Source: Aminobacter niigataensis
Lineage (GTDB): Bacteria > Pseudomonadota > Alphaproteobacteria > Rhizobiales > Rhizobiaceae
Assembly (NCBI RefSeq): GCF_014200015.1
Contig: NZ_JACHOT010000006.1
Coordinates: 62,001-126,000, forward strand
Direction of reading: 5' to 3'
Length of the DNA: 64,000 nt
Shown: piece by piece, positions 28,327-47,874 of the stretch
How positions within the stretch are numbered: the first letter of the stretch is position 1
Layout of the letters: each line of letters starts with the position of its first letter
The notes under the pieces: model-generated
What the model was told of the DNA's origin: nothing
The model's database searches: none
Seen by the model: the letters and a program-made list of their open reading frames with translations, nothing else
Position numbers and translations under genes: made by a program

Positions 28327-29484
28327 ATGTCCATTCAGCGCGCCACGGAAATACTTGACCGGCTTATTGCCTTCCCGACCATCAGCCGAGCCTCCAATCT
28401 CGACCTGATCCACTTCGTCAGGGACTTCCTGGCCAGGCTCGGCATCGCGGCCGACATCGTGCACAATCAGGAAGGAACCAAAGCCAACATCTATGCGACG
28501 CTCGGACCGGCCGAGGTTGCAGGCGTGCTTTTGTCGGGCCATACCGATGTCGTGCCTACGGAAGGCCAGGCGTGGAGCAGCGATCCGTTCCGGATGGCCC
28601 AGCGGGGCGAGCTTCTTTACGGCCGCGGAACAGCCGACATGAAGGGTTTCATCGCCTGCGTGCTGGTGCTGTTCGAGGAGTATGCGGCCCGCAGCTTCAG
28701 CCGTCCGCTGCATCTGGCCTTCAGCTATGACGAGGAAATCGGCTGCGTCGGCGTGCGCCGGCTCATCGACCTTCTGGCCAACAGATCCTATCGCCCTTCG
28801 ATGTGCGTGATCGGTGAACCGACCAGCATGCAGACCGTGGTCGCGCACAAGGGCAAGGTCGCGGGCCGGATCAACTGCACCGGGCGCGAGTGCCATTCCA
28901 GCCATGCGCCGGAAGGGCTGAACGCCATTCATCTCGCCACCGACATGGTGGGTACGCTGCGCGCGCTGCAAGACGAACTGCTCGCAAGTGGCGCCCGCGA
29001 CCCGGACTTCACCGTGCCGTTCACCACGGTTCACGTCGGCATGATCAACGGCGGAACCGCGCTCAACATCGTGCCCAACCATTGCAGCGTCGACTTCGAG
29101 ATCCGCAACATTCCAACCGACAATGCGCAGCCGCTGCTCGACCGCTTGGCCGAGCGCGCCATGGAACTGACAAGCCATGCGCAGTCGCGCTTTCGCCATA
29201 CCGGTGTCGCGCTCGAAATCGTCAACGCCTACCCCGGCCTGGATACCCAGCCTGACGCCGCGGTGGTTCGGGAAATTCAGAAACACACCAACGGCGGCAA
29301 GCTCGGGAAAATAGCCTTCGGCACCGAGGGCGGGCTGTTTCACGAACGGCTTGGCATCCCGACAGTCGTTTGCGGACCCGGCGACATTCGCCAGGCCCAC
29401 CAGCCCGACGAATTCATCAGCCTCGATCAGATGACCCAGTGCATGTCGATGCTTCGCAGGCTGGCCGACGACCTGGCCGCATAG
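28327..29484 (+). CDS. argE: acetylornithine deacetylase-like M20 metallopeptidase
   Basis: 385 residues. The dinuclear zinc site is complete: LSGHTDVVP (His), GRGTADMKGF (Asp), YDEEIGCVG (Glu pair), IGEPTSM and the C-terminal FHERLGIPTVVCGPG. Dimerisation-domain sequence lies between about 185 and 300. It hydrolyses N-acyl amino acids, classically N-acetylornithine. The context of importers and amine catabolism suggests a catabolic N-acyl-amino-acid substrate rather than arginine synthesis, so the argE label describes similarity. It converges on the LysR gene with 4 bp between their ends. Confidence 0.88.
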   Translation: MSIQRATEILDRLIAFPTISRASNLDLIHFVRDFLARLGIAADIVHNQEGTKANIYATLGPAEVAGVLLSGHTDVVPTEGQAWSSDPFRMAQRGELLYGRGTADMKGFIACVLVLFEEYAARSFSRPLHLAFSYDEEIGCVGVRRLIDLLANRSYRPSMCVIGEPTSMQTVVAHKGKVAGRINCTGRECHSSHAPEGLNAIHLATDMVGTLRALQDELLASGARDPDFTVPFTTVHVGMINGGTALNIVPNHCSVDFEIRNIPTDNAQPLLDRLAERAMELTSHAQSRFRHTGVALEIVNAYPGLDTQPDAAVVREIQKHTNGGKLGKIAFGTEGGLFHERLGIPTVVCGPGDIRQAHQPDEFISLDQMTQCMSMLRRLADDLAA

Positions 29485-29488: not shown

Positions 29489-30415
29489 TCAGCGCATCGG
29501 CGCCATCCCCGGCAGATTGACCGTGGTCATGAGCTCGCGGCAATGCTCTTCGAATCTCTCGGTGGCTCGCGTCTTGCGCAAGCCCTTGAGCGTGGCAATG
29601 CCGAGCACCATCGGGGGATGGTCTCCCGCCAGTGGCACGTAGGCGAGCTGCTTTCCGTTGACGGCTGCCATGTTCATGGGACGCGCCGTCATGAGCGAAT
29701 AGCCAAAGCCGCATGCCACGAAACTGCGAACCGTTTCGGGAGAAACCGATCGCGCGGTTATGTTCGGGGTAATGCCATGCGTCACGAACAGATTGAGGAA
29801 GTATTCCTTGCTCAGCGGCATGTCCAACAGGATGAAAGGCTTCTCCGCCAGCACGGACAGCTCGATCGATTTTTCGTTGGCAAGCGGATCATCGGCCGGC
29901 AGCAGAATATAGGTGGGCAATTCGGCCAGGGGCTCGAAGGCGATGTCGTCGGTCAAATGGATCGCATAGGTCAGCGCCAGGTTGATCTCGGCACGTCGCA
30001 GCTTGGCGATCAGCGCTGCCTCGTCGTCTTCGCTGACTTGCAGCTTCACGGCGGGGTATTGCGCAAGAAACCCCTTGCACAACTCGGGAATGAGCATCGG
30101 CGCCAGGGTACGGAACGAGCCTACCTGCAGCGGGCCAGAAACCGATTTGGCCACTTCGTCGGCAATGCCGTGAAGGTCCTCCGCCTGCTGCAGAAGCGCC
30201 TTGGCTGCGTGCAACAGACGTTGACCGGCCGGCGTCAGGGACAATCCCTGCGCATGATGGCGGACGAAGAGCTGGAGGCCAAACTCGGCTTCGAGCTGAG
30301 AGATGGCAGCCGAGATCGAAGGCTGTGAGACATTGATGCGTTCCGACGCAAGGGTAACCCCGCCCACCTCGCCCGCAGCCACGAAGTAGGCGAGTTGCCG
30401 CAACGTAAATCGCAT
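29489..30415 (-). CDS. LysR family transcriptional regulator
   Basis: 308 residues from MRFTLRQLAYFVAAGEVGG; an extended frame to 30520 is not family-like. The N-terminal winged helix-turn-helix reads LASERINVSQPSISAAISQL, followed by a type 2 periplasmic-binding-like effector domain. It is downstream of, and in the same direction as, the DUF1028/RidA/HpaBC genes, 155 bp after DUF1028, and could regulate that cluster or the convergent deacetylase. Confidence 0.92.
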   Translation of the reverse strand: MRFTLRQLAYFVAAGEVGGVTLASERINVSQPSISAAISQLEAEFGLQLFVRHHAQGLSLTPAGQRLLHAAKALLQQAEDLHGIADEVAKSVSGPLQVGSFRTLAPMLIPELCKGFLAQYPAVKLQVSEDDEAALIAKLRRAEINLALTYAIHLTDDIAFEPLAELPTYILLPADDPLANEKSIELSVLAEKPFILLDMPLSKEYFLNLFVTHGITPNITARSVSPETVRSFVACGFGYSLMTARPMNMAAVNGKQLAYVPLAGDHPPMVLGIATLKGLRKTRATERFEEHCRELMTTVNLPGMAPMR

Positions 30416-30569
30416 TGAAAAGGTACGCAAATCGAGATCGTTCACGAGGCCCTGAGCTAGGTTAGTATTCAAGCTAGGTATTCCTCGCGGCGTCGGTCGG
30501 ACGATTGCGTAAGGAACCATCGCGGACGATGGCGGCTGCGAATTTTACTGTCAAGGCGTCATTGGCGCC

Positions 30570-31247
30570 TTACAGATCTCCCGGAACTCCATAAGACGGC
30601 GCGACCGACGGGTTGATCCCGCGCGACACGTAAGCGTCAAGTTGCGGCTCCCACAGCTCCCACAACCTGGAGAGCTCACCGATGGGATCGGTTTCATGCC
30701 AATCCACGCGCAGGTCGGCAACGGGCCAGGCAACCTCACGCACCAGCAGCATGCCAACCGAATGGACCGGGCCTTCTTCACCCCCGGCCGCCAGTGCTGC
30801 CCGCATGGCCTTGATCAGGCGGCTGCCGAGCGACCCGCCCTCGGCCATCAGGAACGCTTCGACCATTTTTTCGGGCACCGCCGCGTTCGACAGCAAATTG
30901 CCGGCGGCCACGACGTTGGGCTCGATCACGGTCCGATGCGTGCCGAGCGTGTTGCGCCCGGAAAAAGCAGCACCGCCGCCATTGCCATCGACCAGCGCAA
31001 GCTGGCGATACTCAAGGTGACTGGCTTGCGATTTGATGCGCTCCATCGCGTCTGCGGCACTTAGTCCGGAAGCCATCAAATCGAGACCAAGTGGCCCGAG
31101 AGTGGGGTCGGTGATGTTCTGGGTCGCCACCACACCGACGCCTGCCCGAGCATGGGCGCAGCGCGCGGCGACGCACGGGCTGGACGACGAAACCGCAATG
31201 CCGAACATTCCGGTCTTTGCGCAGCGCGCCGAAATCGAGAAGGTCAA
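30570..31247 (-). CDS. DUF1028 domain-containing protein (Ntn-hydrolase-like)
   Basis: 225 residues beginning MTFSISARCAKTGMFGIAVS, the standard N-terminus of DUF1028, with GVGVVATQNITDPTLGP following. Family members are Ntn-hydrolase-like and frequently lie next to RidA and amino-acid transport genes; their reaction is not firmly established. Here the RidA gene is 15 bp upstream in the same operon. It may hydrolyse an amide in amine or amino-acid catabolism. Confidence 0.88.
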   Translation of the reverse strand: MTFSISARCAKTGMFGIAVSSSSPCVAARCAHARAGVGVVATQNITDPTLGPLGLDLMASGLSAADAMERIKSQASHLEYRQLALVDGNGGGAAFSGRNTLGTHRTVIEPNVVAAGNLLSNAAVPEKMVEAFLMAEGGSLGSRLIKAMRAALAAGGEEGPVHSVGMLLVREVAWPVADLRVDWHETDPIGELSRLWELWEPQLDAYVSRGINPSVAPSYGVPGDL

Positions 31248-31262
31248 CTGTTCAACCTCCGA

Positions 31263-31682
31263 TCAGGCGGCGTCGGGGATGACTGCGGTCACCTCGATTT
31301 CAACGACCCATTCTGGCCGGGCGAGCGCCGGGACGACGATGCCGGTGGAGCAGGGGAACACGCCCTTCAGCCACTTGCCCATTTCCTGGTAGACCGCTTC
31401 GCGATAGCGGATGTCGGTGACATAGACGACGATGCGGCAGATGTGCGCCATCTCGCTGCCCGCTTCCTCAAGCAGCATCTTGATGTTTTGCATCGTCTTG
31501 GCTGTTTGCGCGCCTGGATCGCCGACATGCAGGCATTCACGCGTGTCGAGGTCCTGGGAAACCTGGCCACGAAGGAAGACCGTGGTGCCGCGGGCGACGA
31601 CGCCCTGCGAAAGATCGTTGTCGAGCTTCTGTTCTGGATAGGTGACGCGGGTATTGAACGGACGCAGGCGCTGATGGATCAT
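31263..31682 (-). CDS. RidA family protein (enamine/imine deaminase)
   Basis: 139 residues of the YjgF/YER057c/UK114 family: FLRGQVSQDLDTRECLHVGD, QTAKTMQNIKMLLEEAGSEM, and the C-terminal RPEWVVEIEVTAV containing the Arg and Glu that line the active site of deaminating members. RidA proteins hydrolyse reactive 2-aminoacrylate-like intermediates to ketoacids and ammonia. It is placed between the monooxygenase HpaB and DUF1028, so it could process an imine produced in this pathway. Confidence 0.92.
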   Translation of the reverse strand: MIHQRLRPFNTRVTYPEQKLDNDLSQGVVARGTTVFLRGQVSQDLDTRECLHVGDPGAQTAKTMQNIKMLLEEAGSEMAHICRIVVYVTDIRYREAVYQEMGKWLKGVFPCSTGIVVPALARPEWVVEIEVTAVIPDAA

Positions 31683-31716
31683 GATTGAGGTTCTTTCACA
31701 ATATCGGGGGACGCCT

Positions 31717-31743
31717 GCGCCAACCGGGGGGACCGGCTGGCGC
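31717..31743 (-). terminator. stem-loop between hpaB and ridA
   Basis: Arms GCGCCAACCGG (31717-31727) and CCGGCTGGCGC (31733-31743) pair at 10 of 11 positions around a GGGGA loop, 20 bp after the hpaB-like stop. No T-tract follows. It may attenuate transcription into ridA or protect the hpaBC message. Confidence 0.5.
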
Positions 31744-31762
31744 GAAGCGAGTTGAAACGGTG

Positions 31763-33235
31763 CTACTTCGCCGCCGCCGCAAAGCTCTGCGGACCGTAGA
31801 CGCGGTCCGACAATCCGGCCGCTTCCTTGGTGAAGCGCAGTGGCTCCTTCCAGTCGAAGTTATTGTAGACGGCCGCCAGGTGCGCGAAGGGTGGGGCCTG
31901 CGCGAAGAGCTGGAAGGTCAGGCGATGACCGGCATAGTCGGAATTCAGCAAATCGCGTGCGAAGGCGAGAAGCTTGCGCCGATCCTCGGCATACCAGTTG
32001 TCGTTTAGCGTGTAGAACTTCTCGAGCCATTGGCCGGCTTCAGGATCGCGGAAGCTGGCGTAGTCCGGCGTGATGCAGATCTGACCGCCGCAAAGCTCGC
32101 GGGCGATGTGCATCATGTGGTGGAGTTGCGAGCAGGCGAGCACGCGGCCAGCCATCAGCAACGACTGGTTCGGCATAAGCAACCCTGCAGGGCTACGCTC
32201 GGCAGTGGCAATTGCCGCCGTCAGGTGTGCATTGATACCCTCGCGGTAGCAGGCCAGCGTGGCGAGCTTTTCCTGAACCGCCTGCTGCTTTTCAAGGCCG
32301 GTCTGGCGCACGTTCCACAACGCCGCACCGATCATCAGGTCGGCAAGCTTCTGGTTGCGCTGGACAAAAGCGAACGCCGAATAGCGATGCAATGTCGAGC
32401 GGATGAACTGCGCCGCTTTCGTGTACTGGTAGAACAGCACATTTTCCCACGGGATCAGCACGTTGTCGTAGATGACCAGCGTGTCGACCTCGTCGACGCG
32501 GTTGGACAGAGGATAGTCCTCGGCCGGCGCGCGTCCGGCAAAGCCGGTGCGGGCAATGAAGCGAAGATTCGGCGAGGAGAAGTCGCAAACGAAGCCTACC
32601 GCATAGTCCGACAGCTTTTCGTCGCCCCAGTTCGCAATCGTCGGCTTGGTGAATGCCTGGTTGGCATAGGCTGCGGCCGTCTCGTATTTCGCGCCGCGGA
32701 CAATGATGCCGGCGTCCGTCTCCTTGACCACATGCAGAAGCATGTCGGGGTCCTGATCCTGCGGGCGCTTCGAGCGGTCGCCCTTGGGATCGGTATTGGC
32801 CGAGACGTGGAACGGGTCGTTCCTCAGAACCGTGTTGATATGGCGCTCGATGTTGACCGCAAAGCGCGGATCCACATCGTTGAGCATTTCGCGGCCGTCG
32901 AACAGCGACCACATTTCACCGACGGTCTCGTCGCCGACGCGGGTGACAATTCCCCGTGCCTCATCAAGGACGGTATCGGTGGAGCGGCGCTTGTCGTGCC
33001 AATCCTGCTGCGTGTACGGCAGCTTCAGGCCGACCGCGAAACGCTCGCCGCCTTCTTCGTAGGACATGACCGAGCTGTGCTTCGGGTCATGCGCCATATC
33101 GTAGATGCGAGCCCGGATATCGACGATAGGCTTGAACATCGGGTGCGACGTGACGTCTTTGACACGCTCACCATTGATCCAAACCCGCCGGCCATCCCGG
33201 ATCGAATCCCGATATTGATTACCGGTTCTGATCAT
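31763..33235 (-). CDS. hpaB: 4-hydroxyphenylacetate 3-monooxygenase-type oxygenase (HpaB-like)
   Basis: 490 residues from MIRTGNQYRDSIRDGRRVWI with AAGG ahead of the ATG; the family is about 480-520 long. Characteristic segments are HPMFKPIVDIRARIYDMAHD, DTLVIYDNVLIPWENVLFY and AGRVLACSQLHHMMHIAREL. HpaB enzymes hydroxylate phenols using FADH2 supplied by a separate reductase. The reductase gene (HpaC-like) lies 44 bp upstream. No ring-cleavage dioxygenase is seen nearby, so the natural substrate may be another aromatic or heterocycle. Confidence 0.9.
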   Translation of the reverse strand: MIRTGNQYRDSIRDGRRVWINGERVKDVTSHPMFKPIVDIRARIYDMAHDPKHSSVMSYEEGGERFAVGLKLPYTQQDWHDKRRSTDTVLDEARGIVTRVGDETVGEMWSLFDGREMLNDVDPRFAVNIERHINTVLRNDPFHVSANTDPKGDRSKRPQDQDPDMLLHVVKETDAGIIVRGAKYETAAAYANQAFTKPTIANWGDEKLSDYAVGFVCDFSSPNLRFIARTGFAGRAPAEDYPLSNRVDEVDTLVIYDNVLIPWENVLFYQYTKAAQFIRSTLHRYSAFAFVQRNQKLADLMIGAALWNVRQTGLEKQQAVQEKLATLACYREGINAHLTAAIATAERSPAGLLMPNQSLLMAGRVLACSQLHHMMHIARELCGGQICITPDYASFRDPEAGQWLEKFYTLNDNWYAEDRRKLLAFARDLLNSDYAGHRLTFQLFAQAPPFAHLAAVYNNFDWKEPLRFTKEAAGLSDRVYGPQSFAAAAK

Positions 33236-33279
33236 TGATACGCCTTTCTCTTGGGTACTTTCTTGCTTCCGGCCGACCG

Positions 33280-33843
33280 CTAGCTGTTCAGCGGCAAGGT
33301 GGACGGATGGCAATATGCGCGTCGGCAATGCGCCAGGGGGGCGCTTTCGGTGGCGGTTACATCCACCACACGGCCGACAAAAATCGTATGGGTTCCAACG
33401 TCGTGGCCGCTATCGACAACGCAGTCGAAGGTGCTTGCGGCATCCGGAAGGCGCGCCGATCCGGTGACGGTCGGCTGCCATTCGGCGCAGCGGAAATCGA
33501 ATGCCTCGCCTTCGCGCGGATGCCCGGCAAAGACGTCGGAAATGTCGCCCTGGTGAACCGCCAGGAGATTGACGCAGAATACGCCGTTTTCCTTGATGGC
33601 CGCGCATGCCGGACTGCGACGGTTGACGCAAACGAGCAGCATTGGCGGGTCAGCCGACACTGACGCCATCGCACTGACGGTGACGCCAAATGTGCCGGCA
33701 GGACCGTCCGTGGTGATGACATTGACGCCGGTTACAGCGCCGCTCATTGCGCCAACGAATGCCCCGCGATCGACCGTCGGAAACTCCTGGCCGACAGCCT
33801 TGAACTCACGACTTGTACTAAGCGATGCTTGGAGGGTCGACAT
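33280..33843 (-). CDS. hpaC: flavin reductase, HpaC-like
   Basis: 187 residues, with FVGAMSGAVTGVNVITTDGP (residues about 28-47), FGVTVSAMASVSADPPMLLV and NRRSPACAAIKENGVFCVNL, the standard flavin-reductase-like FMN-binding pattern of HpaC. It provides reduced flavin for the HpaB-like oxygenase encoded directly downstream. The upstream 131 bp are AT-rich and may hold a promoter. Confidence 0.9.
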   Translation of the reverse strand: MSTLQASLSTSREFKAVGQEFPTVDRGAFVGAMSGAVTGVNVITTDGPAGTFGVTVSAMASVSADPPMLLVCVNRRSPACAAIKENGVFCVNLLAVHQGDISDVFAGHPREGEAFDFRCAEWQPTVTGSARLPDAASTFDCVVDSGHDVGTHTIFVGRVVDVTATESAPLAHCRRAYCHPSTLPLNS

Positions 33844-33974
33844 TTTGGGTGTCTCTCGAAGTTTTCATTGCCTTGTTCGATGGGTAAATATTGGCGCAGA
33901 AGGCATCTTTTTGAAAATAGAGCTTAAATATCTCTTGGTTCGGTATTCCTGATGCAGCCATGCCTTGGCTGGCG

Positions 33975-34424
33975 TCAGTGACCGCGCAATTTCTGCACGA
34001 TCGCTTCGATGGCGATTTCGTAGCCGGCCGGGCCGAGTCCGATCAGGCACCCGGTGACAGCCTGGGAAATGAAGGAGTGATGACGGATCGCCTCCCGCTT
34101 GAAGACATTGCTGACATGGACCTGGAAGCTCGGGCCTCCGAAGCTCGCCATGGCGTCCATGAGTCCGATGGAGGTGTAAGACAGGCTGCCACCGTTGATG
34201 ACGATGCCATCGGCCTTGCCGCGCGCCTCGTGAATCCAGTCGATGAGCATGCTTTCGGAACTGGACTGGTTGAAGCGGACCGTGGCCCCGAGCAGCTCGG
34301 CCTTGTGGCGGCAGCGCGCCTCGATGTCGGCGAGGGTCAGCCGGCCATAGGGGCCTTCGGGGTCGAGACCATACAGGTTCGTGTTGGGTCCATTGAGGAC
34401 CTCGATATGCAAAATGTCGGACAT
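33975..34424 (-). CDS. type II 3-dehydroquinate dehydratase-like protein, divergent
   Basis: 149 residues, the AroQ length, starting MSDILHIEVLNGPN. The fold is clear (NGPN 11-14, PYG with the catalytic Tyr26, HVSN 103-106, FKREAIRHHSFIS). Compared with type II dehydroquinases, the essential lid Arg is replaced by Asp21 and the active-site His by Tyr83 in NGGSLSYTS. Catalysis of dehydroquinate dehydration is therefore unlikely or altered. It lies between the GST gene and hpaC in a catabolic array, so a related lyase or isomerase reaction is suspected. Confidence 0.85.
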   Translation of the reverse strand: MSDILHIEVLNGPNTNLYGLDPEGPYGRLTLADIEARCRHKAELLGATVRFNQSSSESMLIDWIHEARGKADGIVINGGSLSYTSIGLMDAMASFGGPSFQVHVSNVFKREAIRHHSFISQAVTGCLIGLGPAGYEIAIEAIVQKLRGH

Positions 34425-34437
34425 CACGCGCTCACAG

Positions 34438-35085
34438 TCATGCTTTGATCTTGGTGTGATCGACCGCCGCCAGGCGGTCATAGGGCTTGGTCGCGACCAT
34501 CGAAGCACGCGCCTCAAAGTCGGCGAACCATCGCTCCGCCACCGGGCGTTGCGCCCGCCAATTCAGCTCGGGAAACCGGAAGTCGAGATAACCGAGCGCG
34601 CAGCCGAAGCTGATCGCGCCGATCGTCACCTCGCCGCCGACGTCCGGCAGCAGAGCCTCGATCTTGTCCAATGCGGCTTCGACCTTGCGCAGCTGTGCGG
34701 CACGCCATTGAGGCGAACGCGCGCCCTCAGGCCGCATCAGCATTTCGTAGCGGGCAAGCAGCGCTGCATCGAGCAGCCCGTCCCCCAGCGCCTGCTGCAT
34801 GAGCGCTGCCCAACGGCGCGGACCCCGCGGCTCGAAAATCGTGGTGTCCCCGGCCAGTTCTGCCAGGTATTCGCAGATGACCCGGCTGTCGAACAGACAC
34901 ATGCCATCATCGGTCAGCAGGGCTGGGATCTTGCCGAGCGGATTGAACGCGAGAAGGTCCCGGTCTCCCTCGAGCGGCGTGGTGCCGCTCGGTATCAATT
35001 CAATCCTGCTGACCAGCCCGACTTCATGGGCCACCGTCATGACCTTGCGGACATAGGGAGAAGTCGGAGCGTAAAAGAGTTTCAA
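34438..35085 (-). CDS. glutathione S-transferase family protein
   Basis: About 215 residues if started at the TTG of LKLFYAPTSPYVRK (35085); an alternative TTG at 35148 exists but overlaps a palindrome. The thioredoxin-like N-domain (FYAPTSPYVRKVMTVAHEVG) and helical C-domain (GALGYLDFRFPELNW-like segment near residue 165) are clear. Members conjugate glutathione or act as isomerases or dehalogenases in aromatic catabolism. No in-frame ATG precedes the conserved start. It is followed after 13 bp by the dehydroquinase-like gene. Confidence 0.87.
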   Translation of the reverse strand: MKLFYAPTSPYVRKVMTVAHEVGLVSRIELIPSGTTPLEGDRDLLAFNPLGKIPALLTDDGMCLFDSRVICEYLAELAGDTTIFEPRGPRRWAALMQQALGDGLLDAALLARYEMLMRPEGARSPQWRAAQLRKVEAALDKIEALLPDVGGEVTIGAISFGCALGYLDFRFPELNWRAQRPVAERWFADFEARASMVATKPYDRLAAVDHTKIKA

Positions 35086-35131
35086 GACGCGAACCCGCCA
35101 TTGCAAGTGTTCTGATTTGGACGACAGCTGC

Positions 35132-35152
35132 CGACTTGATCGGATCAAGTCG
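35132..35152. promoter_or_regulatory. long palindrome between glcG-like and GST genes
   Basis: Ten-base arms CGACTTGATC and GATCAAGTCG around a single G. It lies 36 bp after the stop of the GlcG-like gene and 47 bp before the preferred GST start, so it is either an operator for GST and downstream genes or a short hairpin; with a 1-base centre an operator is more likely. Confidence 0.55.
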
Positions 35153-35187
35153 CCAATGCCGATCGGGGCGATCGGGCGAGCCGGCGG

Positions 35188-35610
35188 CTAGGGCTTCTGG
35201 TCTTCGGCGCCCACGCCACTGAGTGCGGCACGCGCCACCTCGACGTCCTGGGCGCCTGTCCCGGAACCGACACCGACCGCGCCAACGCAGTGCCCGTCGA
35301 TGAATATGGGCAAACCGCCCTCTAGATTGGTAAGGCGACCGCCGCCCGCGATGGCGAGCTTGATTTCGTAGTTCGGATCGAGGCGTGACGTCGGCTGGCG
35401 ATGCGAGGCGGCGGTGATCGCCTTGGACATCGAGGTTTCACGCGACAAGAGTTTTGCCCCGTCCATCCGCACGAACGCCAGCAAATTGCCGCCGTCGTCG
35501 ACGATCGTGATGTTTTGGGGAACGTTGAGCGACTCGGCCTTGGCAACTGCACTGGCGAGGGCCTTGAGCGCCCCGGCGTGCGTCAGCTTCAATGCAGGCT
35601 TGGTTGTCAT
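35188..35610 (-). CDS. GlcG/HbpS (DUF336) family protein
   Basis: 140 residues from MTTKPALKLTHAGALKALAS, with GGAGG 5 bases before the ATG. Typical segments are ITIVDDGGNLLAFVRMDGAK, SKAITAASHRQ, and the glycine-rich end GGLPIFIDGHCVGAVGVGSG. The family is found in many catabolic operons and includes heme- and cobalamin-related proteins; its reaction is not firmly known. It lies between RibF-like and GST genes on the same strand. Confidence 0.88.
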   Translation of the reverse strand: MTTKPALKLTHAGALKALASAVAKAESLNVPQNITIVDDGGNLLAFVRMDGAKLLSRETSMSKAITAASHRQPTSRLDPNYEIKLAIAGGGRLTNLEGGLPIFIDGHCVGAVGVGSGTGAQDVEVARAALSGVGAEDQKP

Positions 35611-35755
35611 GTCTACCTCCAAGGATGAGGCCGGCCATGACGATCTCGCTGGCAAGCCATATTCCTTGCTAGGTATCCACCCAAGGTCTTGGATCTGTAA
35701 AATAGTATAGCTCGTGCCTATGGATCACATTTTGCGATCTTTCGGCGAGACGGAA

Positions 35756-36730
35756 CTAACCGGCGCGCCGACGGATGAAATCGACGAACAATATGGCCTG
35801 CGGTCCAGGCTCTATGGCACGCCAACACTCCAGCGCCAGGGTTGCCACCCCCGAAGCATCGATGGTGATGCAGCCGTGTGACAGCGGTCCAGATGCATTT
35901 GGCAGCCGTACCGTAACATCATATGCGCCGCAGGCGGGTTTGAGCACGCTGCCGTGCCAAGCCACGATCTTCTCTCCCGATCGCAACACCGCAGCCGGCT
36001 CTACTCCCAGCTCGACGCTCCACGCATGGCCGAGCAATGAGTTGGCTGCCTCGATGTCACCCGACATGAGCAGATTGCGCACGCGCGTCGACGAACAGGT
36101 GGCGTCGTCCCAGTGAATGTCCTCGACCACCGTCACCGCAAACCCGCGCTGTTGTCCAAGGCGTCGCAAAAGATCCACGTCGCCGCGTCGCTGCCGGCCG
36201 AAACGAAAATTGTGGCCGACAACCAACCGCGAGACCTTGAACCCGTCGACCAGGATTTCATCGATGAAATCCTCCGGCTCCTGTCCGGCGAAGGCGTGGT
36301 CAAAACGCGGGCTGTACAGGAAGTCGACGCCGAGCCGACCGAAAGTTTCCGCTTTGGTGGCGGGCGTGCCGAGACGGAACGCCTTGGCTTGCGGCGCAAA
36401 AAGCTGGCGCGGATGCGGTTCGACGGACATGACGCCGATCGGGCTGCTACCGACGAGCGCGGCCGCCTGGGCCGCCGCCATCAGCGCCTGGTGGCCGCGA
36501 TGGAAGCCATCGAAACTTCCAAGCATCATGACGCTTGCCTGCAAGTCGGCCGGCAGCGTCGCTGCGTCAGTCACCAGCTGCAACGGTCTACCGCATGGCC
36601 CAACAAAGGGGACGCCCATGCCCTGATGCAGATCTCGCGGTGCAATGGATTGGTGGCGCTGGGCAAGATCGCCAATGCGGCCGCGATACGGCGAGAAGAG
36701 TGTATTTCGGGTATCGACCATCGTGTTCAT
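35756..36730 (-). CDS. RibF-like FAD synthetase, accessory copy with divergent kinase domain
   Basis: 324 residues. After a non-conserved extension of about 65 residues comes the nucleotidyltransferase domain: MMLGSFDGFHRGHQALMAAA, SVEPHPRQLF, VVGHNFRFGRQRRGDV and TCSSTRVRNLL. The C-terminal region (about 235-324), where riboflavin kinase should be, lacks its usual motifs (GSVLKPACGAYDVTV instead of a clear PT/PN-containing site). It probably adenylylates FMN to FAD but may not phosphorylate riboflavin. In a cluster with HpaB/HpaC, a dedicated FAD supply makes sense. Confidence 0.85.
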   Translation of the reverse strand: MNTMVDTRNTLFSPYRGRIGDLAQRHQSIAPRDLHQGMGVPFVGPCGRPLQLVTDAATLPADLQASVMMLGSFDGFHRGHQALMAAAQAAALVGSSPIGVMSVEPHPRQLFAPQAKAFRLGTPATKAETFGRLGVDFLYSPRFDHAFAGQEPEDFIDEILVDGFKVSRLVVGHNFRFGRQRRGDVDLLRRLGQQRGFAVTVVEDIHWDDATCSSTRVRNLLMSGDIEAANSLLGHAWSVELGVEPAAVLRSGEKIVAWHGSVLKPACGAYDVTVRLPNASGPLSHGCITIDASGVATLALECWRAIEPGPQAILFVDFIRRRAG

Positions 36731-36817
36731 GATCGAAAAAATAGCTCAACTTCATGCCTCGGGAAAATATGAAAGTGCAAGCAACAGGATCAGCAATTCT
36801 GATCCACCAGCCGACGG

Positions 36818-37393
36818 CTAGGCACGCGTCTCCGGTTCGAAAGCAGCAACCAGGCACACGCTGTCCCGGCCCGGAGCAATATCGACCCGGGCAACGTCCC
36901 GCACGATAAGCGTTTCGCCGGCATCGATGCGGCCGGGGGATGCGATGCATTCGCCGCGCACGGCATGCACGACAAGCAGCCCACCTGGCGGAACGGACAT
37001 GCTGCCTCCGTCGGAATTGCCTACCACGGCGACCCGTGCAGACCAGCGTCCGCGGCGCGTCATGACGTTCATGACCTGTGATGCACCGCCTGGCAACTGC
37101 GAACATGGCGCCGATACACTGTCGAAGCGATAGGGCGACAGGTGCCCTAGCGCGACCTCCTCCCCGTCCTCGAAGCGAAGGACCAGGGGATTTTCGCCAA
37201 GGCGCGTGATCGTCCGGTCGATGCCCGGAAACGGAGAGAACTGTGATTCATCGACGATCGGCGCCCGGCTGATGCGAATATCGAAGTTCTCATGCGTTGC
37301 ACCTTGCGGCAGCAGGAGAACGTCTTCGGTGACGCCCCGGCCATTTTTCCAGGGCGTCGTTCGATAGTCCTGCTCGGTCAAGAATTCCAACAT
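36818..37393 (-). CDS. HutD/Ves family protein
   Basis: 191 residues of the bicupin HutD family: TPWKNGRGVTEDVLLLP (residues about 13-29), FDIRISRAPIVDESQFSPFP and FRFDSVSAPC-like central strands. HutD is linked to histidine utilisation in other bacteria with an ill-defined regulatory or metabolite-buffering role. Here it sits between a polyamine-type ABC importer and the RibF-like gene, with no histidine-catabolic genes beside it. Function in this cluster unknown. Confidence 0.87.
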   Translation of the reverse strand: MLEFLTEQDYRTTPWKNGRGVTEDVLLLPQGATHENFDIRISRAPIVDESQFSPFPGIDRTITRLGENPLVLRFEDGEEVALGHLSPYRFDSVSAPCSQLPGGASQVMNVMTRRGRWSARVAVVGNSDGGSMSVPPGGLLVVHAVRGECIASPGRIDAGETLIVRDVARVDIAPGRDSVCLVAAFEPETRA

Positions 37394-37470
37394 CAGGATT
37401 GCCCTTCCTGCCAGCCAGGGCCTCGGCGCCGGCCGGTCATACGTTCTGCACCGGCGCCCGAGGTTCAGCT

Positions 37471-38592
37471 TCAGCTCGACTTGTCGGCGAGGAGAATGAC
37501 CTGCGACAAATCGAAGGCGATCTGCGTCGGCATTCCCACGGGAACCCTGCCGACAACGTCGCCGCCAGGAAGCCGCATCTCGATCGGACCGAGGCCGTCA
37601 ACGCGCAGACGCGTGATCGTGTGCGAACCCTGATAGATGTGGGTCAGCACTTCACCCGTGACGACGTTGCAGCCGGCGTCGGCGGACGTCGCTATCCGGA
37701 TGTGCTCAGGCCGCACGAACGCCTGCACCATCTCTCCCTGGCCGAACTGCCATTCCGCACGCCGTGGCGCGGTCATGCGGATATTTCCGATTGCCAGCGA
37801 GATCTCGCGGTCGGATGCCTGATAGATTGCCGCCGGCAAGGCGTTGATTTCACCGATGAAGGAGGCAACGAAACCGTTGGCCGGATTGCGGTAGAGATCG
37901 ATCGGCTCGGCCACCTGCTGAATTTGACCGCGGTTCATCACCACGATGCGATCGGAAAGGCTCAGCGCCTCGCCCTGGTCGTGTGTCACGAAGATCGTTG
38001 TCAGGCCGGTATTACGATGCATTTCGATCAACTCGACCTGCATCTGGGCACGCAGGCTCTTGTCGAGCGCCGACAAGGGTTCGTCGAGCAGCAGAACCTT
38101 GGGCTGGATGGCGATAGCGCGGGCCAGGGCGACACGCTGCTGCTGGCCTCCCGACAGTTGCGAGATGCGCCGGCCTTCCATGCCCGACAGCTTCATCATC
38201 TCGATGGTCTGCATGACCTTGTGCGTAACTTCGCTCTTGGAGAACTTCCGCTGGCGCAGGCCGAAGGCCACGTTGTCGAAGACGTTCATGTGCGGAAACA
38301 GCGCATAGCTCTGGAAAACCATGCCGGTGTCGCGCAGATGAACGGGAACATCGGTGACGTCGACGCCACCGATGTGGATCGCTCCGGCGCTGGGGTCGAT
38401 GAAGCCCGCCACCATGTTGAGCAACGTGGTCTTGCCGCAGCCGCTAGGCCCGAGCAGGGTGACGAATTCCCCGGTACGGATCGGCAGCGATACGTTGTTG
38501 ACTGCGTGGAACGAGCCGAACGTCTTGCTTACGGCCTTGATCTCGACCGAGTGTTCGAGAGCTGTGATGGCGGTCATTTTTTGATGCATCAT
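37471..38592 (-). CDS. ABC transporter ATP-binding protein, PotA-like
   Basis: 373 residues with Walker A GPSGCGKTT, Q-loop VFQSYALFPH, signature LSGGQQQR and Walker B KVLLLDEPLSALD, then a TOBE domain over the last 90 residues. It energises import by the two permeases encoded directly upstream in transcription order. The start MMHQKMTAITAL could be either the first ATG or that at MTAITAL. Confidence 0.93.
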   Translation of the reverse strand: MMHQKMTAITALEHSVEIKAVSKTFGSFHAVNNVSLPIRTGEFVTLLGPSGCGKTTLLNMVAGFIDPSAGAIHIGGVDVTDVPVHLRDTGMVFQSYALFPHMNVFDNVAFGLRQRKFSKSEVTHKVMQTIEMMKLSGMEGRRISQLSGGQQQRVALARAIAIQPKVLLLDEPLSALDKSLRAQMQVELIEMHRNTGLTTIFVTHDQGEALSLSDRIVVMNRGQIQQVAEPIDLYRNPANGFVASFIGEINALPAAIYQASDREISLAIGNIRMTAPRRAEWQFGQGEMVQAFVRPEHIRIATSADAGCNVVTGEVLTHIYQGSHTITRLRVDGLGPIEMRLPGGDVVGRVPVGMPTQIAFDLSQVILLADKSS

Positions 38593-38612
38593 GGTGCTAA
38601 ACCTCTAGCGCT

Positions 38613-39422
38613 TCAGCCGTTGTCGATTCCAAGGATTCGACGGAGGCCGAGGAAATGATTGGCAATGATCATGATCGCTGTCGTCGAAAGGATCAGCAGC
38701 GCCGATATCGCCGAAATGGTGGGGTCCGCATATTCCCGGATGTAATTGTACATCGCGACCGGCAGCGTTTGGGTGCGGCTTGCGGTGACGTAGAGCGAAG
38801 CCGTGAACTCGGTCAGCGACAGAATCGATGCGATGAGCCAGCCGCCTATCATACCGGGCAAAATCAAGGGAACCGTGATCTTGACCATCACCCTGGTGGG
38901 CGTGGCGCCGAGATTGGCCGCCGCGCGGGCGTAGTTCGGGTCGACATTGCTCAGCGAGACAAAAACTGCGCGAGTCACGAATGGTGTCACAAGCAACAGA
39001 TGGGCCATGACAATGACAGCAAAGCCCTGCGTCAGGTTGAGATGGCTGCCGAGCAGAAGGAAGCCAAATCCTGTGGTGAAATGCGGCACGATCAGCGGCG
39101 ACCACAGCGCGGCTTCAAGGAGACCGCGACCACGGAAATTATAGTGGAAGATCAGATAGGCGAAGCTTGATCCAAGCAGCATGGCGAGTGTCGAAGACAC
39201 CCCCATGACGATCAAGCTATTTTTGAAGGCCACCTGAAAGTCCGGATATGTCAGCGCCTTTTCATACCAGCGCAGCGAAAAGCCGTTTGGCGGAAACGCC
39301 ATGACTTCCGTGGGGTTGAACGATGTCGCGACGACGACCACGGCAGGCAGCGTCATATAGACCAGGATCGCCACTACGGCCGTCCAGAACAGAGTGCTTC
39401 GCATGTTCGTACCCTTGCTCAT
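38613..39422 (-). CDS. ABC transporter permease, PotC-like
   Basis: 269 residues with about six membrane helices and an EAA-type loop (RAAANLGATPTRVMVKITVP). The first ATG overlaps the end of the PotB-like gene (ATGA); a second at MRSTLFW, six codons later, is also possible. It forms the channel of the third polyamine-class importer of the window. Confidence 0.91.
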   Translation of the reverse strand: MSKGTNMRSTLFWTAVVAILVYMTLPAVVVVATSFNPTEVMAFPPNGFSLRWYEKALTYPDFQVAFKNSLIVMGVSSTLAMLLGSSFAYLIFHYNFRGRGLLEAALWSPLIVPHFTTGFGFLLLGSHLNLTQGFAVIVMAHLLLVTPFVTRAVFVSLSNVDPNYARAAANLGATPTRVMVKITVPLILPGMIGGWLIASILSLTEFTASLYVTASRTQTLPVAMYNYIREYADPTISAISALLILSTTAIMIIANHFLGLRRILGIDNG

Positions 39423-40276
39423 GACGTCGCCATGTTCTGCTCGAGGCGGGCCGTGAGGAGTTTCATCAATGCCAGGCTTCCAAGTGCGGCAACCAGCGCG
39501 ACAAGGCTAAGCACCGCCGCAAAGGGCAGGTTGAATGACGAGAAGCCCTGGAGATAGACGACATTTGAAATCATCAGCACCTTGCCTCCGCCGATCAGTT
39601 GAGGTGTCGAGAAGGCGCTCATCGTCCAGGCGAAGACCACGACGAAGCCGGAGAGAATGCCCGGCAGGGTAAGTGGAATGGTCACCCACCAGAAAACCGT
39701 GTTCGGTGTGGCGCCAAGATTGGCGGCCGCCTTTTCACAGTCGCGGTTGATCTGGCTGATCGCGGTCGCCAGCAGGATGATCATGACCGGCATTGCAAAT
39801 TGCACTAGGGCGATGACGACGCCCACCCGCGTGTACATGATCGGCACGGACCGATCGATGATGCCCAGCGACTTCAGCGCCGTGTTGACGACACCGTCCG
39901 AGCCGAGCACCAGCATCCAGGAATAGGTGCGCACGATTTCGCCGGTGAACAGCGGCGTGATCGCCAGGACCACAAGTACCGAGCGCACCCAGTTCCGCTC
40001 GGCGCGTACCAATGCAAACGAAATCGGATAGCTCAGCAGCAGTGCGAAGAACGCCGTCGCAAAGCTTAGGATGAAGGTGTCGAGCAAGACCCAATAGTAG
40101 ATTGGCCGATTGATGCGGGTGAAGTTTTCCAGCGTGAAGCCACCGACATTCAGCGATCCGGGAACGAATTCGAGGAAGCTGTACTTCAGGACATTGAACA
40201 TCGCTGCGGCGAAAATCACCGCGACGAGTACCGCTGGCACGAGAAACTGAACGAAAAAGGGGCGCTGTCTGGTCAT
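39419..40276 (-). CDS. ABC transporter permease, PotB-like
   Basis: 285 residues from MTRQRPFFVQFL; a frame open upstream to 40357 runs through a hairpin and into the binding-protein gene and is rejected. Hydrophobic segments begin at residue 8 and the EAA-type loop reads KAAANLGATPNTVFWWVTIP. It is coupled by ATGA overlap to the next permease. A hairpin lies 7 bp before its ATG and leaves little room for a ribosome site. Confidence 0.91.
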   Translation of the reverse strand: MTRQRPFFVQFLVPAVLVAVIFAAAMFNVLKYSFLEFVPGSLNVGGFTLENFTRINRPIYYWVLLDTFILSFATAFFALLLSYPISFALVRAERNWVRSVLVVLAITPLFTGEIVRTYSWMLVLGSDGVVNTALKSLGIIDRSVPIMYTRVGVVIALVQFAMPVMIILLATAISQINRDCEKAAANLGATPNTVFWWVTIPLTLPGILSGFVVVFAWTMSAFSTPQLIGGGKVLMISNVVYLQGFSSFNLPFAAVLSLVALVAALGSLALMKLLTARLEQNMATS

Positions 40277-40282
40277 GGCCGT

Positions 40283-40307
40283 TGGGCAGCGCACAAGGCG
40301 CTGCCCA
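40283..40307 (-). terminator. hairpin between binding-protein and PotB-like genes
   Basis: TGGGCAGCGC-acaag-GCGCTGCCCA, a perfect 10-bp stem with a 5-base loop, in the 44-bp gap between the genes. No T-run. It probably favours the binding-protein message and lowers permease translation, since it occupies the place of the Shine-Dalgarno region. Confidence 0.65.
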
Positions 40308-40320
40308 TCCTCTCGACTGG

Positions 40321-41346
40321 TTACTGCATCATGTTTTCGGTGAACCAGATCTTCCACTGCGGAAGAAGCTTGGCGTAGGTCGCATCGTCAAGCACGATCG
40401 CCTGGGTCTTCCACTGCTCGTCGGTCGTGAAGATCCCTGGCAGTTTCGCAAGCTCTTCCGAAATCTTGGCCTTGCGGTTCATCGGCGAACATTTGTGGAA
40501 TTCGCAGATCTCCTGCTGAACGATGGGGTCCAGCGCGACGTTGATGAACTCGTGCGCGGCATCGAGCTTCTTGGTTCCCGTGTTGATGCCCAGGGCGCCG
40601 ATGCCAACCACGGCACCTTCCTTCGGGATGGCAATCTCGATCGGCAAGCCCTGCTCGATCAAATGGTATCCATTGATCGACAGCAGGACCTGCACAGGCG
40701 TTTCACCGGTGCGGATGAGATCCTGGCTGGTCGCATCCGACTGATAGAAGGCCTTGATGTTGGGCTTCAGCGCAGTCAGCTTGTCGGTGATGCTTTCCCA
40801 ATCCGCCGGGCTTTTGCCTTCCATGACCGAAGCGGCGATGACGACATGGCTGGGATCGAAATCCGGGAGACCCAGGCTGCTCTTCATGGATTCGTCCCAC
40901 AGAACTTTCCATGAATCGATCTTGAAGCCTTCAGGCATGAGATCGGTGCGGAAGGCCGGCGAATAGACGTAGGAGTAAACGCCCATCTCGTAGCCGCCGC
41001 GATCGCCGGCAGGGTAGAGGTCGGCGGCGTTCGGAACCTTGCTCATATCGAGTTTTTCGAAAAGGCCATCCGATTGATAGAGGGCCCCCACATGCGATGT
41101 CGTGTAGGTCACGTCGGACTCGGGATTTCCCTTGGCGACCTTGGCCTTGGCCAGACGGTCGAGCGTGCCGCCGGTGATGAACTCGACTTCCATCCCTGTA
41201 CGCTTGGTGAATTCCTTGGCGATAATGGCCGTTCCGTCCTTCCAGTTTCCGCCCCAGGTGCTGACGATCAGCTTCTCCTGTGCGCCCGACTGCGTCGCGA
41301 ACGATGCCAGCGCCATGGCGCCGATGCCAATCCAATAATTCTTCAT
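40321..41346 (-). CDS. periplasmic solute-binding protein, PotD-like
   Basis: 341 residues with signal peptide MKNYWIGIGAMALASFATQS. The mature protein (LIVSTWGGNWKDGTAIIAKE, VEFITGGTLDRLAKAKVAKG) is typical of the spermidine/putrescine-binding class. It supplies ligand to the PotABC-like proteins encoded next. The associated HpaBC, RidA, HutD and GhrA-like genes suggest an amine- or acid-containing aromatic or heterocyclic ligand, but this is inference. Confidence 0.9.
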   Translation of the reverse strand: MKNYWIGIGAMALASFATQSGAQEKLIVSTWGGNWKDGTAIIAKEFTKRTGMEVEFITGGTLDRLAKAKVAKGNPESDVTYTTSHVGALYQSDGLFEKLDMSKVPNAADLYPAGDRGGYEMGVYSYVYSPAFRTDLMPEGFKIDSWKVLWDESMKSSLGLPDFDPSHVVIAASVMEGKSPADWESITDKLTALKPNIKAFYQSDATSQDLIRTGETPVQVLLSINGYHLIEQGLPIEIAIPKEGAVVGIGALGINTGTKKLDAAHEFINVALDPIVQQEICEFHKCSPMNRKAKISEELAKLPGIFTTDEQWKTQAIVLDDATYAKLLPQWKIWFTENMMQ

Positions 41347-41451
41347 TGCATGCTCCTCACTTTTTCATTGTTGTTTATTGACACCAACGTTGCCAAGCAT
41401 CGCGTTCCCCAGCGATGCGAGACAGCGCCAACCTCAGGGATTTCCCTGAAC

Positions 41452-42387
41452 CTAGTAGCCCCTTTGCGGATCGACTTGATGAAGGGGCGCTTCACCGCGG
41501 CGCACGCGCCTTATGCTCTCGGCCACATCGCGAACCGCCAGAGCGGGCACGGTAATGCTGGCCAGATGTGGCGTTATGAAAACGTTGTCCAAGGCCCAGT
41601 ATGGATGGCTCGGTGGCAACGGCTCGGCGCCGAACACGTCAAGCGTTGCTTCGCCGATGGCTCCCGATCTAAGTGCCGCCACCAGGGCTGCTTCATCGAC
41701 CACAGCACTACGCGAAACGTTGATGAACTTGGCGCCAGCCGGCATCAGCGCCAGTTCACGCGCGCCAAGGAGGGCATGCGTGTCGTTTGTCGCCGGAAGC
41801 ATCGATACAAAGATCTCGCATTCTCCGAGCAGGGCATCGAGCGAGCTACGTCCGGCGTGACATGCGACCCCGGGAATGGTCTTCAATGAACGCGACCATC
41901 CACGAACGTCATAGCCCATATCGGCAAGCGATTTGGCCGCATGGGCACCGAGTTCGCCGAGACCGAGGACGCAGACCTTGATTTCGGACAGGGCGCGCGG
42001 GTGGACATAGTGCCACTCCCCTCGCCGCTTGGCGCGCTCGAAGATATGCATGTCACGGGCGTAGCGGGTCACTGCAAAGATGACATAGCTCGTCATGAGC
42101 GACACCATCCCGGGATCCGAAAGGCGGGTAATAGGAACAGGCACGAGGTCGTCGCGGTTCAACAGCGCGTCCACCCCAGCGCCAAGGTTGGTCAAAAGCT
42201 TGAGATTGCGGAACCTCTGGAAGAAGCCTTTCGGAGGCAGCCAGCACAAGGCGTAACTGACTTCCGCAGGATCGCCACCGTCTTCGTCAACGCGAAAATC
42301 CAGATCCGGCAATTCGCTGGCGAGAGCATCCCGCCATGCCGCGGGATCATCCACGGGACTGTAGAAGACAAGAGCATCACGCTTCAT
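41452..42387 (-). CDS. D-2-hydroxyacid dehydrogenase, GhrA-like
   Basis: 311 residues from MKRDALVFYSPVDD. The NAD(P)-binding motif VLGLGELGAHAAKSLADMGY (about 139-158), the catalytic Arg/Glu/His context (NVSRSAVVDE, GAEPLPPSHPYW, FITPHLASIT) and the short length match glyoxylate/hydroxypyruvate reductase A. It reduces 2-oxoacids to D-hydroxyacids. It is the first gene of the leftward array, 105 bp ahead of the binding-protein gene. Confidence 0.9.
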   Translation of the reverse strand: MKRDALVFYSPVDDPAAWRDALASELPDLDFRVDEDGGDPAEVSYALCWLPPKGFFQRFRNLKLLTNLGAGVDALLNRDDLVPVPITRLSDPGMVSLMTSYVIFAVTRYARDMHIFERAKRRGEWHYVHPRALSEIKVCVLGLGELGAHAAKSLADMGYDVRGWSRSLKTIPGVACHAGRSSLDALLGECEIFVSMLPATNDTHALLGARELALMPAGAKFINVSRSAVVDEAALVAALRSGAIGEATLDVFGAEPLPPSHPYWALDNVFITPHLASITVPALAVRDVAESIRRVRRGEAPLHQVDPQRGY

Positions 42388-44639: not shown

Positions 44640-44648
44640 ACCGCGAGC

Positions 44649-45404
44649 CTAATGCAGGATCTGACTGAGGAAGAGCCGCGTCCGGTCATGCTTCGGCGTA
44701 TCGAAGAACGCCGAAGGTTCCGCGCTTTCGACGATCTGGCCACGATCCATGAAGATGACGCGATCGGCGACGCGGCGCGCAAAACCCATTTCGTGGGTGA
44801 CGCAGATCATGGTCATGCCTTCTTCGGCCAAGCCCACCATCGTGTCGAGCACCTCCGTCACCATTTCCGGGTCGAGCGCGGACGTCGGCTCATCGAAGAG
44901 CATGATCTTCGGGTTCATGCAAAGCGATCGCGCAATCGCGGCGCGCTGCTGCTGCCCGCCGGAAATCTGCGAGGGGTATTTATGCGCGTGATCCGAAATC
45001 CTGACGCGCGACAGGTAGCGCATGGCGGTTTCGTTGGCGGCCTTTCGGCTCATGCCCCGCACCGACATCGGCGCAAGGGTGCAGTTTTCCAGGATGGTCA
45101 GATGCGGAAACAGGTTGAAGTGCTGGAACACCATGCCGACTTCCCGGCGCACCTCGTCCACCGATCGTGTGTCGTCGGTAAGGGCGATGCCGTCGACAGT
45201 CACCTGGCCGCTTTGAAACTGCTCGAGGCGGTTGAGGCAGCGGATCAATGTCGATTTTCCGGAGCCAGAGGGCCCGCAGATGACCACGCGCTCGCCCTTG
45301 GCCACATCGAAATCGATGTCCTTGAGCACCTGGAATTGTCCATACCATTTGCTGACGGAACGCATGACGACAGCAGCATCGGATGTCTTAGCCGGCATGA
45401 GCAT
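44649..45404 (-). CDS. amino-acid ABC transporter ATP-binding protein (second), GlnQ-like
   Basis: 251 residues from [10 protein letters not shown] (an alternative ATG is two codons in). Walker [11 protein letters not shown]-loop [10 protein letters not shown], signature ISGGQQQR and Walker [17 protein letters not shown] identify the polar-amino-acid class. It overlaps the aspartase stop by 17 bases. The operon already has a full ATPase gene (47875-48699), so this is a second nucleotide-binding subunit for the same permease pair, or serves permeases elsewhere. Confidence 0.92.
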
Positions 45405-46839: not shown

Positions 46840-46847
46840 GATGGATC

Positions 46848-47861: not shown

Positions 47862-47874
47862 TTCGCTGTCCTTC

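Follow-up and report, generated by a model that had tools for sequence, protein, structure and literature searches.

Gene content and layout of the operon

Which pathway could combine an importer, a flavin monooxygenase with its own reductase, a RidA-family protein, a DUF1028 protein and a relative of type II dehydroquinase? The question is raised by fifteen genes at positions 29489-42387 of a 64,000-nucleotide stretch of Aminobacter niigataensis (contig NZ_JACHOT010000006.1, positions 62,001 to 126,000 of the forward strand; "the window" means this whole stretch), which a sequence-only reading had proposed as one conserved catabolic unit of no nameable pathway. We consider it likely that the locus is a plasmid-borne catabolic operon of two modules for an imidazole-type (N-heteroaromatic) carboxylic acid, in which module 1 resembles the lower histamine (hin) pathway of Pseudomonas, with a two-component HpaB/HpaC (HpaBC) oxygenase replacing the flavin adenine dinucleotide (FAD) monooxygenase HinF. 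The hin pathway is known; what looks new here is a variant with a swapped oxygenase and an apparently undescribed import and side-chain module.

All fifteen genes lie on the minus strand at the coordinates first proposed, and the intergenic gaps run from a 4-base overlap up to 154 bases (depending on the start codons chosen), as expected of the leftward array with short gaps that had been described. A Pfam scan agreed for ten genes (LysR, DUF1028, RidA (Ribonuc_L-PSP), HpaB_N/HpaB, Flavin_Reduct, DHquinase_II, GST, HbpS/GlcG, FAD_syn and HutD), and the remaining five comprise a D-2-hydroxyacid dehydrogenase that most resembles GhrA, a solute-binding protein of the SBP_bac_8 type, two permeases and a PotA-type ATPase, the last three being named as ATP-binding cassette (ABC) transporter parts on the near-identical plasmid pUSP1. 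The fifteen genes are thus present, and the unit extends beyond the interval first drawn, to an M20 hydrolase, an aspartase and a PIG3-type reductase, which head the following list.

25506-26507, minus: PIG3-family NAD(P)H-quinone oxidoreductase-like protein (QOR), module 2; TIGR02824, 450 bits; 59% identical to the QOR in the cluster on the Klebsiella plasmid
26690-28087, minus: aspartate ammonia-lyase-like protein, putative HinI role; Pfam Lyase_1/FumaraseC_C; NF008909, 656 bits, above cut-off
28327-29484, plus, convergent to the operon: M20 hydrolase, putative HinG role; Pfam Peptidase_M20, M20_dimer
29489-30415, minus (longest open reading frame 29489-30520): LysR-type regulator; Pfam LysR_substrate, HTH_1
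30570-31247, minus: DUF1028 protein, putative HinH role; Pfam PF06267, 218 bits
31263-31682, minus: RidA-family protein of a distinct subfamily, putative HinL role; Pfam PF01042
31763-33241, minus: HpaB-type two-component flavin monooxygenase, proposed HinF replacement; Pfam HpaB_N, HpaB
33280-33843, minus: HpaC/RutF-type flavin reductase; Pfam PF01613; RutF and HpaC models below cut-off
33975-34430, minus: type II dehydroquinase paralogue (AroQ-like, AroQL) with Asp23 and Tyr85; Pfam PF01220
34438-35082, minus: glutathione S-transferase (GST), module 2; Pfam GST_N_2, GST_C_2
35188-35610, minus: GlcG/HbpS-like protein, module 2; Pfam PF03928
35756-36730, minus: FAD synthetase domain protein without a riboflavin kinase domain; Pfam FAD_syn only
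36818-37393, minus: HutD-family protein; Pfam PF05962
37471-38592, minus: ABC importer ATPase, PotA type; pUSP1 annotation
38613-39422, minus: ABC permease B; pUSP1 annotation
39419-40276, minus: ABC permease A; pUSP1 annotation
40321-41346, minus: ABC solute-binding protein, SBP_bac_8
41452-42387, minus (longest open reading frame to 42522): GhrA-like D-2-hydroxyacid dehydrogenase; GhrA model 217 bits, below cut-off

Conservation of the core around HpaB

We compared the locus with the best 80 of at least 540 HpaB relatives from the genome collection, whose neighbouring genes (called by codon-scored prediction) were matched to those of the window at E ≤ 1e-8 and any identity. RidA was found in 78 of these loci, DUF1028 in 70, HpaC in 65, LysR in 63 (a large family, so that some matches may be paralogues) and M20 in 39, followed by the FAD-synthetase-like gene (16) and the AroQ-like gene (4); 55 of the 80 loci exceed 21 kb with both flanks, and the rest end at contig borders. 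Because these partners recur and the window's whole genome holds a single DUF1028 gene, the operon copy, the linkage is more than chance. It is kept across alpha-, beta- and gammaproteobacteria and on a Bacillus plasmid, and the core genes thus stay together in relatives rather than lying scattered, in keeping with one conserved catabolic unit. HutD, which had been offered as a pointer to the ligand, defines little, since it occurs in only 13 of the 80 loci. An aspartase adjoins the cluster in L030, L031 and L032.

The distribution of HpaB is patchy, since few genomes match: 25 of 198 other genomes sampled in the order carry it at ≥65% identity (one more has a 40% match), and a Pseudomonas HpaB query under a stricter limit matched 9 of 398 genomes of the phylum, the window's own genome included. 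Plasmid pPM400 of Bacillus badius (L122) carries HpaB, RidA and DUF1028 with an FAD synthetase, an amino-acid permease, a histone-deacetylase-like protein, a transaminase and an aldehyde dehydrogenase, and by its genes reads as a Gram-positive version of the pathway.

Match to the lower histamine pathway

In the available parts of two reports, the Pseudomonas hin2 operon, hinFLHG, is described as encoding an FAD monooxygenase (HinF, Enzyme Commission (EC) 1.14.13.5), an enamine deaminase and two amidases (HinG being EC 3.5.1.8), with HinI an aspartase and HinK a LysR regulator responding to imidazole-4-acetate (PMC8231116, PMC6467879). As far as these parts go, RidA, DUF1028, M20 and aspartase match hinL, hinH, hinG and hinI in family and order, the route running from imidazole-4-acetate to aspartate and fumarate. 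In the window, RidA and DUF1028 follow the ring oxygenase HpaB, M20 lies beside LysR on the opposite strand, and an aspartate ammonia-lyase (putative HinI) is present. The core can be named, contrary to the first assessment: it corresponds to the lower hin pathway with another oxygenase. The imine and amide chemistry expected from RidA and DUF1028 fits HinL and HinH, which are called an enamine deaminase and an amidase (PMC6467879).

Compared with hin2 of P. putida U and P. aeruginosa (PA5390-PA5393), the window shares an oxygenase, RidA, DUF1028 and M20 (the latter two by order), aspartase and LysR. It differs in having the two-component HpaB/HpaC instead of an FAD monooxygenase, in the strand of M20, in lacking the histamine transaminase and aldehyde dehydrogenase part, and in its extra module of importer, GhrA, AroQL, GST and PIG3.

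A plasmid of Pseudohalocynthiibacter carries an HpaB gene and, some genes off, a single-component FAD monooxygenase beside RidA and DUF1028. When 398 genomes of the phylum were searched, this FAD monooxygenase had 63 matching places, spread over 57 genomes, and among 20 neighbourhoods chosen from the better of these the one-strand order FAD monooxygenase-RidA-DUF1028 was found in 17, with M20 following in 11. Because its neighbours follow the hinFLHG order, we took it for HinF, on the basis of names, EC label and gene order. No match to it was found in the window's genome at E 1e-40, and the cluster should thus not be filed as a hinF-type operon, since the defining hinF gene is absent. The best model for the HinF-like FAD monooxygenase (L124:17525-18802, L235:16580-17830) was TIGR04046 (MSMEG_0569 family), below cut-off, which relates it to a flavoprotein family that has no assigned role. 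The window LysR is 39% identical to that of L138, which in turn matches PDB entries 3fzv (589 bits) and 6m5f (587 bits), one of which is presumably HinK.

Exchange of the oxygenase

Two Pseudomonas loci (L077 and L092) have HpaB in the oxygenase place before RidA, DUF1028 and M20, with LysR alongside, and their genes are closely related to those of seven FAD-monooxygenase loci (L137-L142 and L144): identities are 87-90% for RidA, 62-79% for DUF1028, 61-74% for M20 and, in the four of the seven loci where LysR was found, 58-85% for LysR. On a tree of 107 DUF1028 proteins made by a quick method, with many open forks and several long-branched rows and excluding the duplicate loci L195 and L202, the oxygenase label switches seven times, at least three of which are forced by supported branches. 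We counted co-occurrence over 123 different loci including the window, leaving out L195 (a copy of L060) and L202 (a copy of L081). HpaC was present in 78 of 95 HpaB loci, the FAD-synthetase-like gene in 19 and HutD in 15, and each in none of the 28 loci with FAD monooxygenase alone; the pairing of HpaB with an FAD synthetase recurs on the Bacillus badius plasmid. The restriction of these genes to HpaB loci is what would follow from a one-component enzyme having given way to a two-component one that depends on free flavin, and it supports the proposal that the flavin reductase and FAD synthetase serve HpaB. We therefore read HpaBC as a putative non-orthologous replacement of HinF. Within the one library searched, nothing connecting HpaB to histamine or imidazole-acetate appeared among the matches listed.

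Residues of HpaB, RidA, DUF1028 and the FAD synthetase

The HpaB protein scored below both HpaB equivalog models (232.2 bits against a cut-off of 480.2, and 151.3 against 885.2). In an alignment with the solved 4-hydroxyphenylacetate 3-hydroxylase 2yyg, Arg100 is kept as R101, and Tyr104 and His142 are replaced by E105 and S147, both invariant in 17 aligned sequences. We take Tyr104 and His142 to be phenol-binding, a role for which we found no mention in PMC6506529; because they are replaced by invariant Glu and Ser, the substrate of HpaB is probably not a phenol. The likeness to 4-hydroxyphenylacetate 3-monooxygenase HpaBC is thus one of protein families and two-component design, from which the window HpaB departs in its sub-threshold scores, its E105/S147 pair and its gene partners.

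The R5, R7, F9 and T11 of RidA were invariant in all 117 sequences, from loci of both oxygenase types. Thr113, also invariant in 117 of 117, aligns with the archetypal catalytic Arg position (presumably Arg105 of Salmonella RidA), so that the protein lacks the Arg of archetypal deaminases. DUF1028 has an invariant Thr2 (106 of 106), and its AlphaFold model (mean confidence score, pLDDT, 87) matched the solved DUF1028 protein 2imh in Foldseek, with weak further matches to proteasome subunits, HslV and PurO (best E 9.6e-5, TM-score about 0.35-0.5). These matches and Thr2 suggest that the modelled protein has an Ntn-hydrolase fold and fits an N-terminal-nucleophile (Ntn) amidase, in agreement with HinH being called an amidase. 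The name DUF1028 was not found in the literature searched.

The protein first labelled RibF-like has the FAD synthetase domain (FAD_syn, a flavin mononucleotide adenylyltransferase) with motifs GSFDGFHRGH and SSTRVR, and the Pfam scan found no riboflavin kinase domain; a second RibF-like match (37%) lies elsewhere in the genome. The Rut pyrimidine pathway (RutA-RutF) also acts on an N-heterocycle with a flavin oxygenase, a flavin reductase and a RidA-family protein, and RutF was the best model for HpaC, below cut-off. RutA and RutB are not among the genes named in the cluster, and the Rut pathway was rejected since RidA reached 36 bits against a RutC cut-off of 169 and the RutF model was below threshold.

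A second, separable module

The AroQ-like gene, present in 20 of the 123 loci including the window, marks a second set of genes. Using identity limits of >45% for GhrA, PIG3 and GST, >40% for the binding protein and permeases and >60% for GlcG, we found the binding protein in 17 of these 20 loci, GhrA, the PIG3 reductase and permease A in 16 each, permease B in 15, GST in 12 and GlcG in 7; all seven were absent from the 103 loci without AroQL. The same 20 loci hold RidA in 19, DUF1028 in 17 and M20 in 10, and their oxygenase is HpaB in 9 and the FAD monooxygenase in 11. Of the single gene set first proposed, the core linkage therefore stands, and AroQ, GlcG and GhrA belong to a separable second module (importer, GhrA, AroQL, GST, PIG3 and GlcG) that is apparently undescribed and recurs in distantly related bacteria.

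AroQL belongs to the fold family of type II 3-dehydroquinate dehydratase (AroQ) and keeps Asn16, Tyr28, Asn79 and one His, which we take to be active-site residues. In type II dehydroquinase, Arg and His at positions 23 and 85 are catalytic. All 20 AroQL proteins have Asp23 and Tyr85 instead, as opposed to Arg and His in 54 of 54 ordinary AroQ proteins (L159, L167 and L171 duplicate L192, L191 and L190, so each pair was counted once), and every Asp/Tyr member inspected adjoins this pathway. AroQL passes the subfamily model NF003807 (148 against 130 bits) and fails the aroQ equivalog (140 against 170), and by its sequence is not an ordinary dehydroquinase. A search of the class with AroQL gave matches in 198 of 385 genomes, and of 30 loci returned 29 were ordinary AroQ and one was the window; the window's genome had two matches, of which the window copy was inspected. 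The GhrA-like enzymes have R226, E255 and H274, presumably catalytic, invariant in eight of eight aligned. We know of no imidazole pathway with side-chain chemistry by a dehydroquinase paralogue, a GhrA-like dehydrogenase, a PIG3 reductase and a GST.

Module 2 occurs on plasmids of Klebsiella, Pantoea, Rhizobium and Shinella (the last without GhrA and with another transporter). One such plasmid AroQL, used as query, matched 135 plasmid records, 102 from Klebsiella and 7 from Escherichia, with the gene neighbourhood viewed in one Klebsiella stretch. On one Klebsiella pneumoniae plasmid (L235), the AroQL module is flanked by two IS5-family transposase genes, so that it may move as a unit. An arylmalonate-decarboxylase-like protein was found in two AroQL loci, and an alpha-hydroxyacid oxidase in two.

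The histamine link and the substrate

Fourteen of the 80 HpaB loci encode a homologue (≥55% identity) of a histamine-dehydrogenase-like protein, whose scores were 929 and 858 bits for two histamine dehydrogenases of solved structure and 516 for trimethylamine dehydrogenase; in other HpaB loci there are class III transaminases and aldehyde dehydrogenases. None of the 20 AroQL loci had histamine upper genes, compared with 36 of the 103 others (Fisher p 0.0008, just a guide since the loci share ancestry and came from several different queries). No close histamine dehydrogenase was found in the window's genome (best match 31%), and a search of the window for transaminases and aldehyde dehydrogenases (HinC and HinD in the histamine route) gave no class III transaminase match and a best aldehyde dehydrogenase match of 33%. 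Imidazolonepropionase, as in the ordinary histidine route, is encoded elsewhere in the genome. Our best guess for the substrate, weakly held, is an imidazole 2-hydroxy- or 2-oxo-acid.

Homarine, trigonelline and proline-betaine, which had been considered from Rieske and old-yellow-enzyme-like neighbours, were dropped as the old-yellow-enzyme-like gene turned out to be the histamine-dehydrogenase-like one; a search of the homarine-gene literature gave nothing useful among the matches listed. The Rieske oxygenase (L051:7037-8128 and related loci), sometimes inside the operon, has carnitine monooxygenase as its nearest solved structure and is possibly an N-demethylase for methylated imidazoles.

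Proposed pathway and alternative explanations

In the pathway we propose, HpaC would give HpaB reduced flavin, with FAD from the FAD-synthetase-like protein, and HpaB would oxidise the ring (in the hin model, imidazole-4-acetate to imidazolone-acetate). The Thr-type Ntn hydrolase DUF1028 and the special RidA would then be responsible for ring opening and ammonia release, the M20 hydrolase (named acetylornithine deacetylase by NCBIfam, with NF005710 and TIGR01892 above cut-off) would take off the formyl group, and aspartase would yield fumarate. The most likely task of module 2 is the uptake of a side-chain variant, possibly a 2-hydroxy- or 2-oxo-acid, which it would convert to the substrate of module 1.

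Several points weigh against this proposal. Histamine itself is an improbable substrate, since no close histamine dehydrogenase is encoded in the window's genome. Of the 80 HpaB loci, 10 gave no DUF1028 match and 2 no RidA match in the neighbourhood (some on short contigs), and M20 was found in just 39 of them and in 10 of the 20 AroQL loci, where RidA is also missing in one and DUF1028 in three. The supported part of the DUF1028 tree forces just three oxygenase changes, with many forks open, and the equations with HinF, HinL, HinH and HinG rest on names, family labels and order rather than alignment. The reactions, the substrate and the division of steps between RidA and DUF1028 are all inferred, and the data leave module 2 acting either before or after ring opening.

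The latter order, in which GhrA, the AroQ-like protein, GST and PIG3 act once the ring is open, on a product that is not formylaspartate, is a minority possibility that we take seriously, and it is compatible with our reading of module 1. It would account for the 10 AroQL loci, some cut short, in which M20 was not found, and GhrA, GlcG and the alpha-hydroxyacid oxidase of two loci suggest 2-hydroxy or 2-oxo acid intermediates; however, module 2 and M20 occur together in the window, in L030, L193 and L237 and on the Klebsiella and Pantoea plasmids, the window has aspartase as well, and module 2 and the histamine upper genes were not seen together in the loci compared, as expected of alternative upper branches.

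Somewhat doubtful, too, is the view that the core acts on another N-heteroaromatic acid (e.g., pyrrole-2-carboxylate or a methylated imidazole-acetate) by the same chemistry of ring oxidation, DUF1028 lactam opening and RidA imine hydrolysis, with the histamine-linked loci as one branch. The lack of histamine upper genes in the window speaks for it, as do the Rieske oxygenase in 14 and nucleobase-type permeases in 7 of the 80 HpaB loci, and E105/S147 at the presumed phenol-binding positions leave the choice of a non-phenol substrate wide. On the other hand, the invariant residues of RidA and DUF1028 are the same in loci with and without histamine genes, and two Pseudomonas genomes have HpaB in the place of the other oxygenase before closely related downstream genes.

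The family names alone would suggest an ordinary operon for a phenol (4-hydroxyphenylacetate) hydroxylase whose neighbours are unrelated to it; this is very improbable and was rejected on scores and gene partners: HpaB falls far below the equivalog cut-offs, a ring-cleavage dioxygenase is absent among the genes identified in the cluster, and the RidA, DUF1028 and M20 partners are conserved. Chance assembly of independent genes on a plasmid is scarcely credible, for although the near-identical locus is plasmid-borne and HpaB was unmatched in all six other same-family genomes of one sample, the linkage across three proteobacterial classes and a Bacillus plasmid and the counts themselves already contradict it.

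Taking the imidazole-type reading further, we lean, with moderate confidence, towards the AroQL module representing an undescribed catabolic pathway for an unknown imidazole-type acid, spread by plasmids from Aminobacter and Rhizobium to Klebsiella, E. coli and Pantoea, with repeated exchange of two unrelated flavin monooxygenases before the same ring-opening enzymes. If so, many genes annotated as 4-hydroxyphenylacetate 3-hydroxylase, type II 3-dehydroquinate dehydratase, acetylornithine deacetylase or DUF1028 would belong to imidazole-type catabolism (at least 540 candidate stretches encode HpaB relatives, with orthology examined for the best 80), and DUF1028 would gain a role. The locus would also offer a natural exchange of two unrelated oxygenases within one pathway. 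It would hint, too, at an unknown imidazole compound, the genes for whose use are kept on plasmids of soil and enteric bacteria.

Plasmid setting and neighbouring genes

When gene order was compared with plasmid pUSP1 of Aminobacter sp. MSH1, HpaB was 100% and the other genes of the unit 97-100% identical; because of this near identity, the window is very probably part of a large plasmid of the pUSP1 kind. Close to the unit lies a small gene (23376-23879, plus strand) named peptide deformylase on pUSP1; its position beside a pathway expected to release a formyl group is suggestive. An adjoining and apparently separate cluster (18457-23118, minus strand) comprises, by pUSP1 names, an LLM-class flavin oxidoreductase, a gamma-glutamyltransferase-like gene, an ABC ATPase and a substrate-binding protein. 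The stretch 43641-48672 (minus strand) holds genes named on pUSP1 as asparaginase, a second aspartase, agmatinase and an amino-acid ABC transporter, so that the window has two aspartase-like genes.

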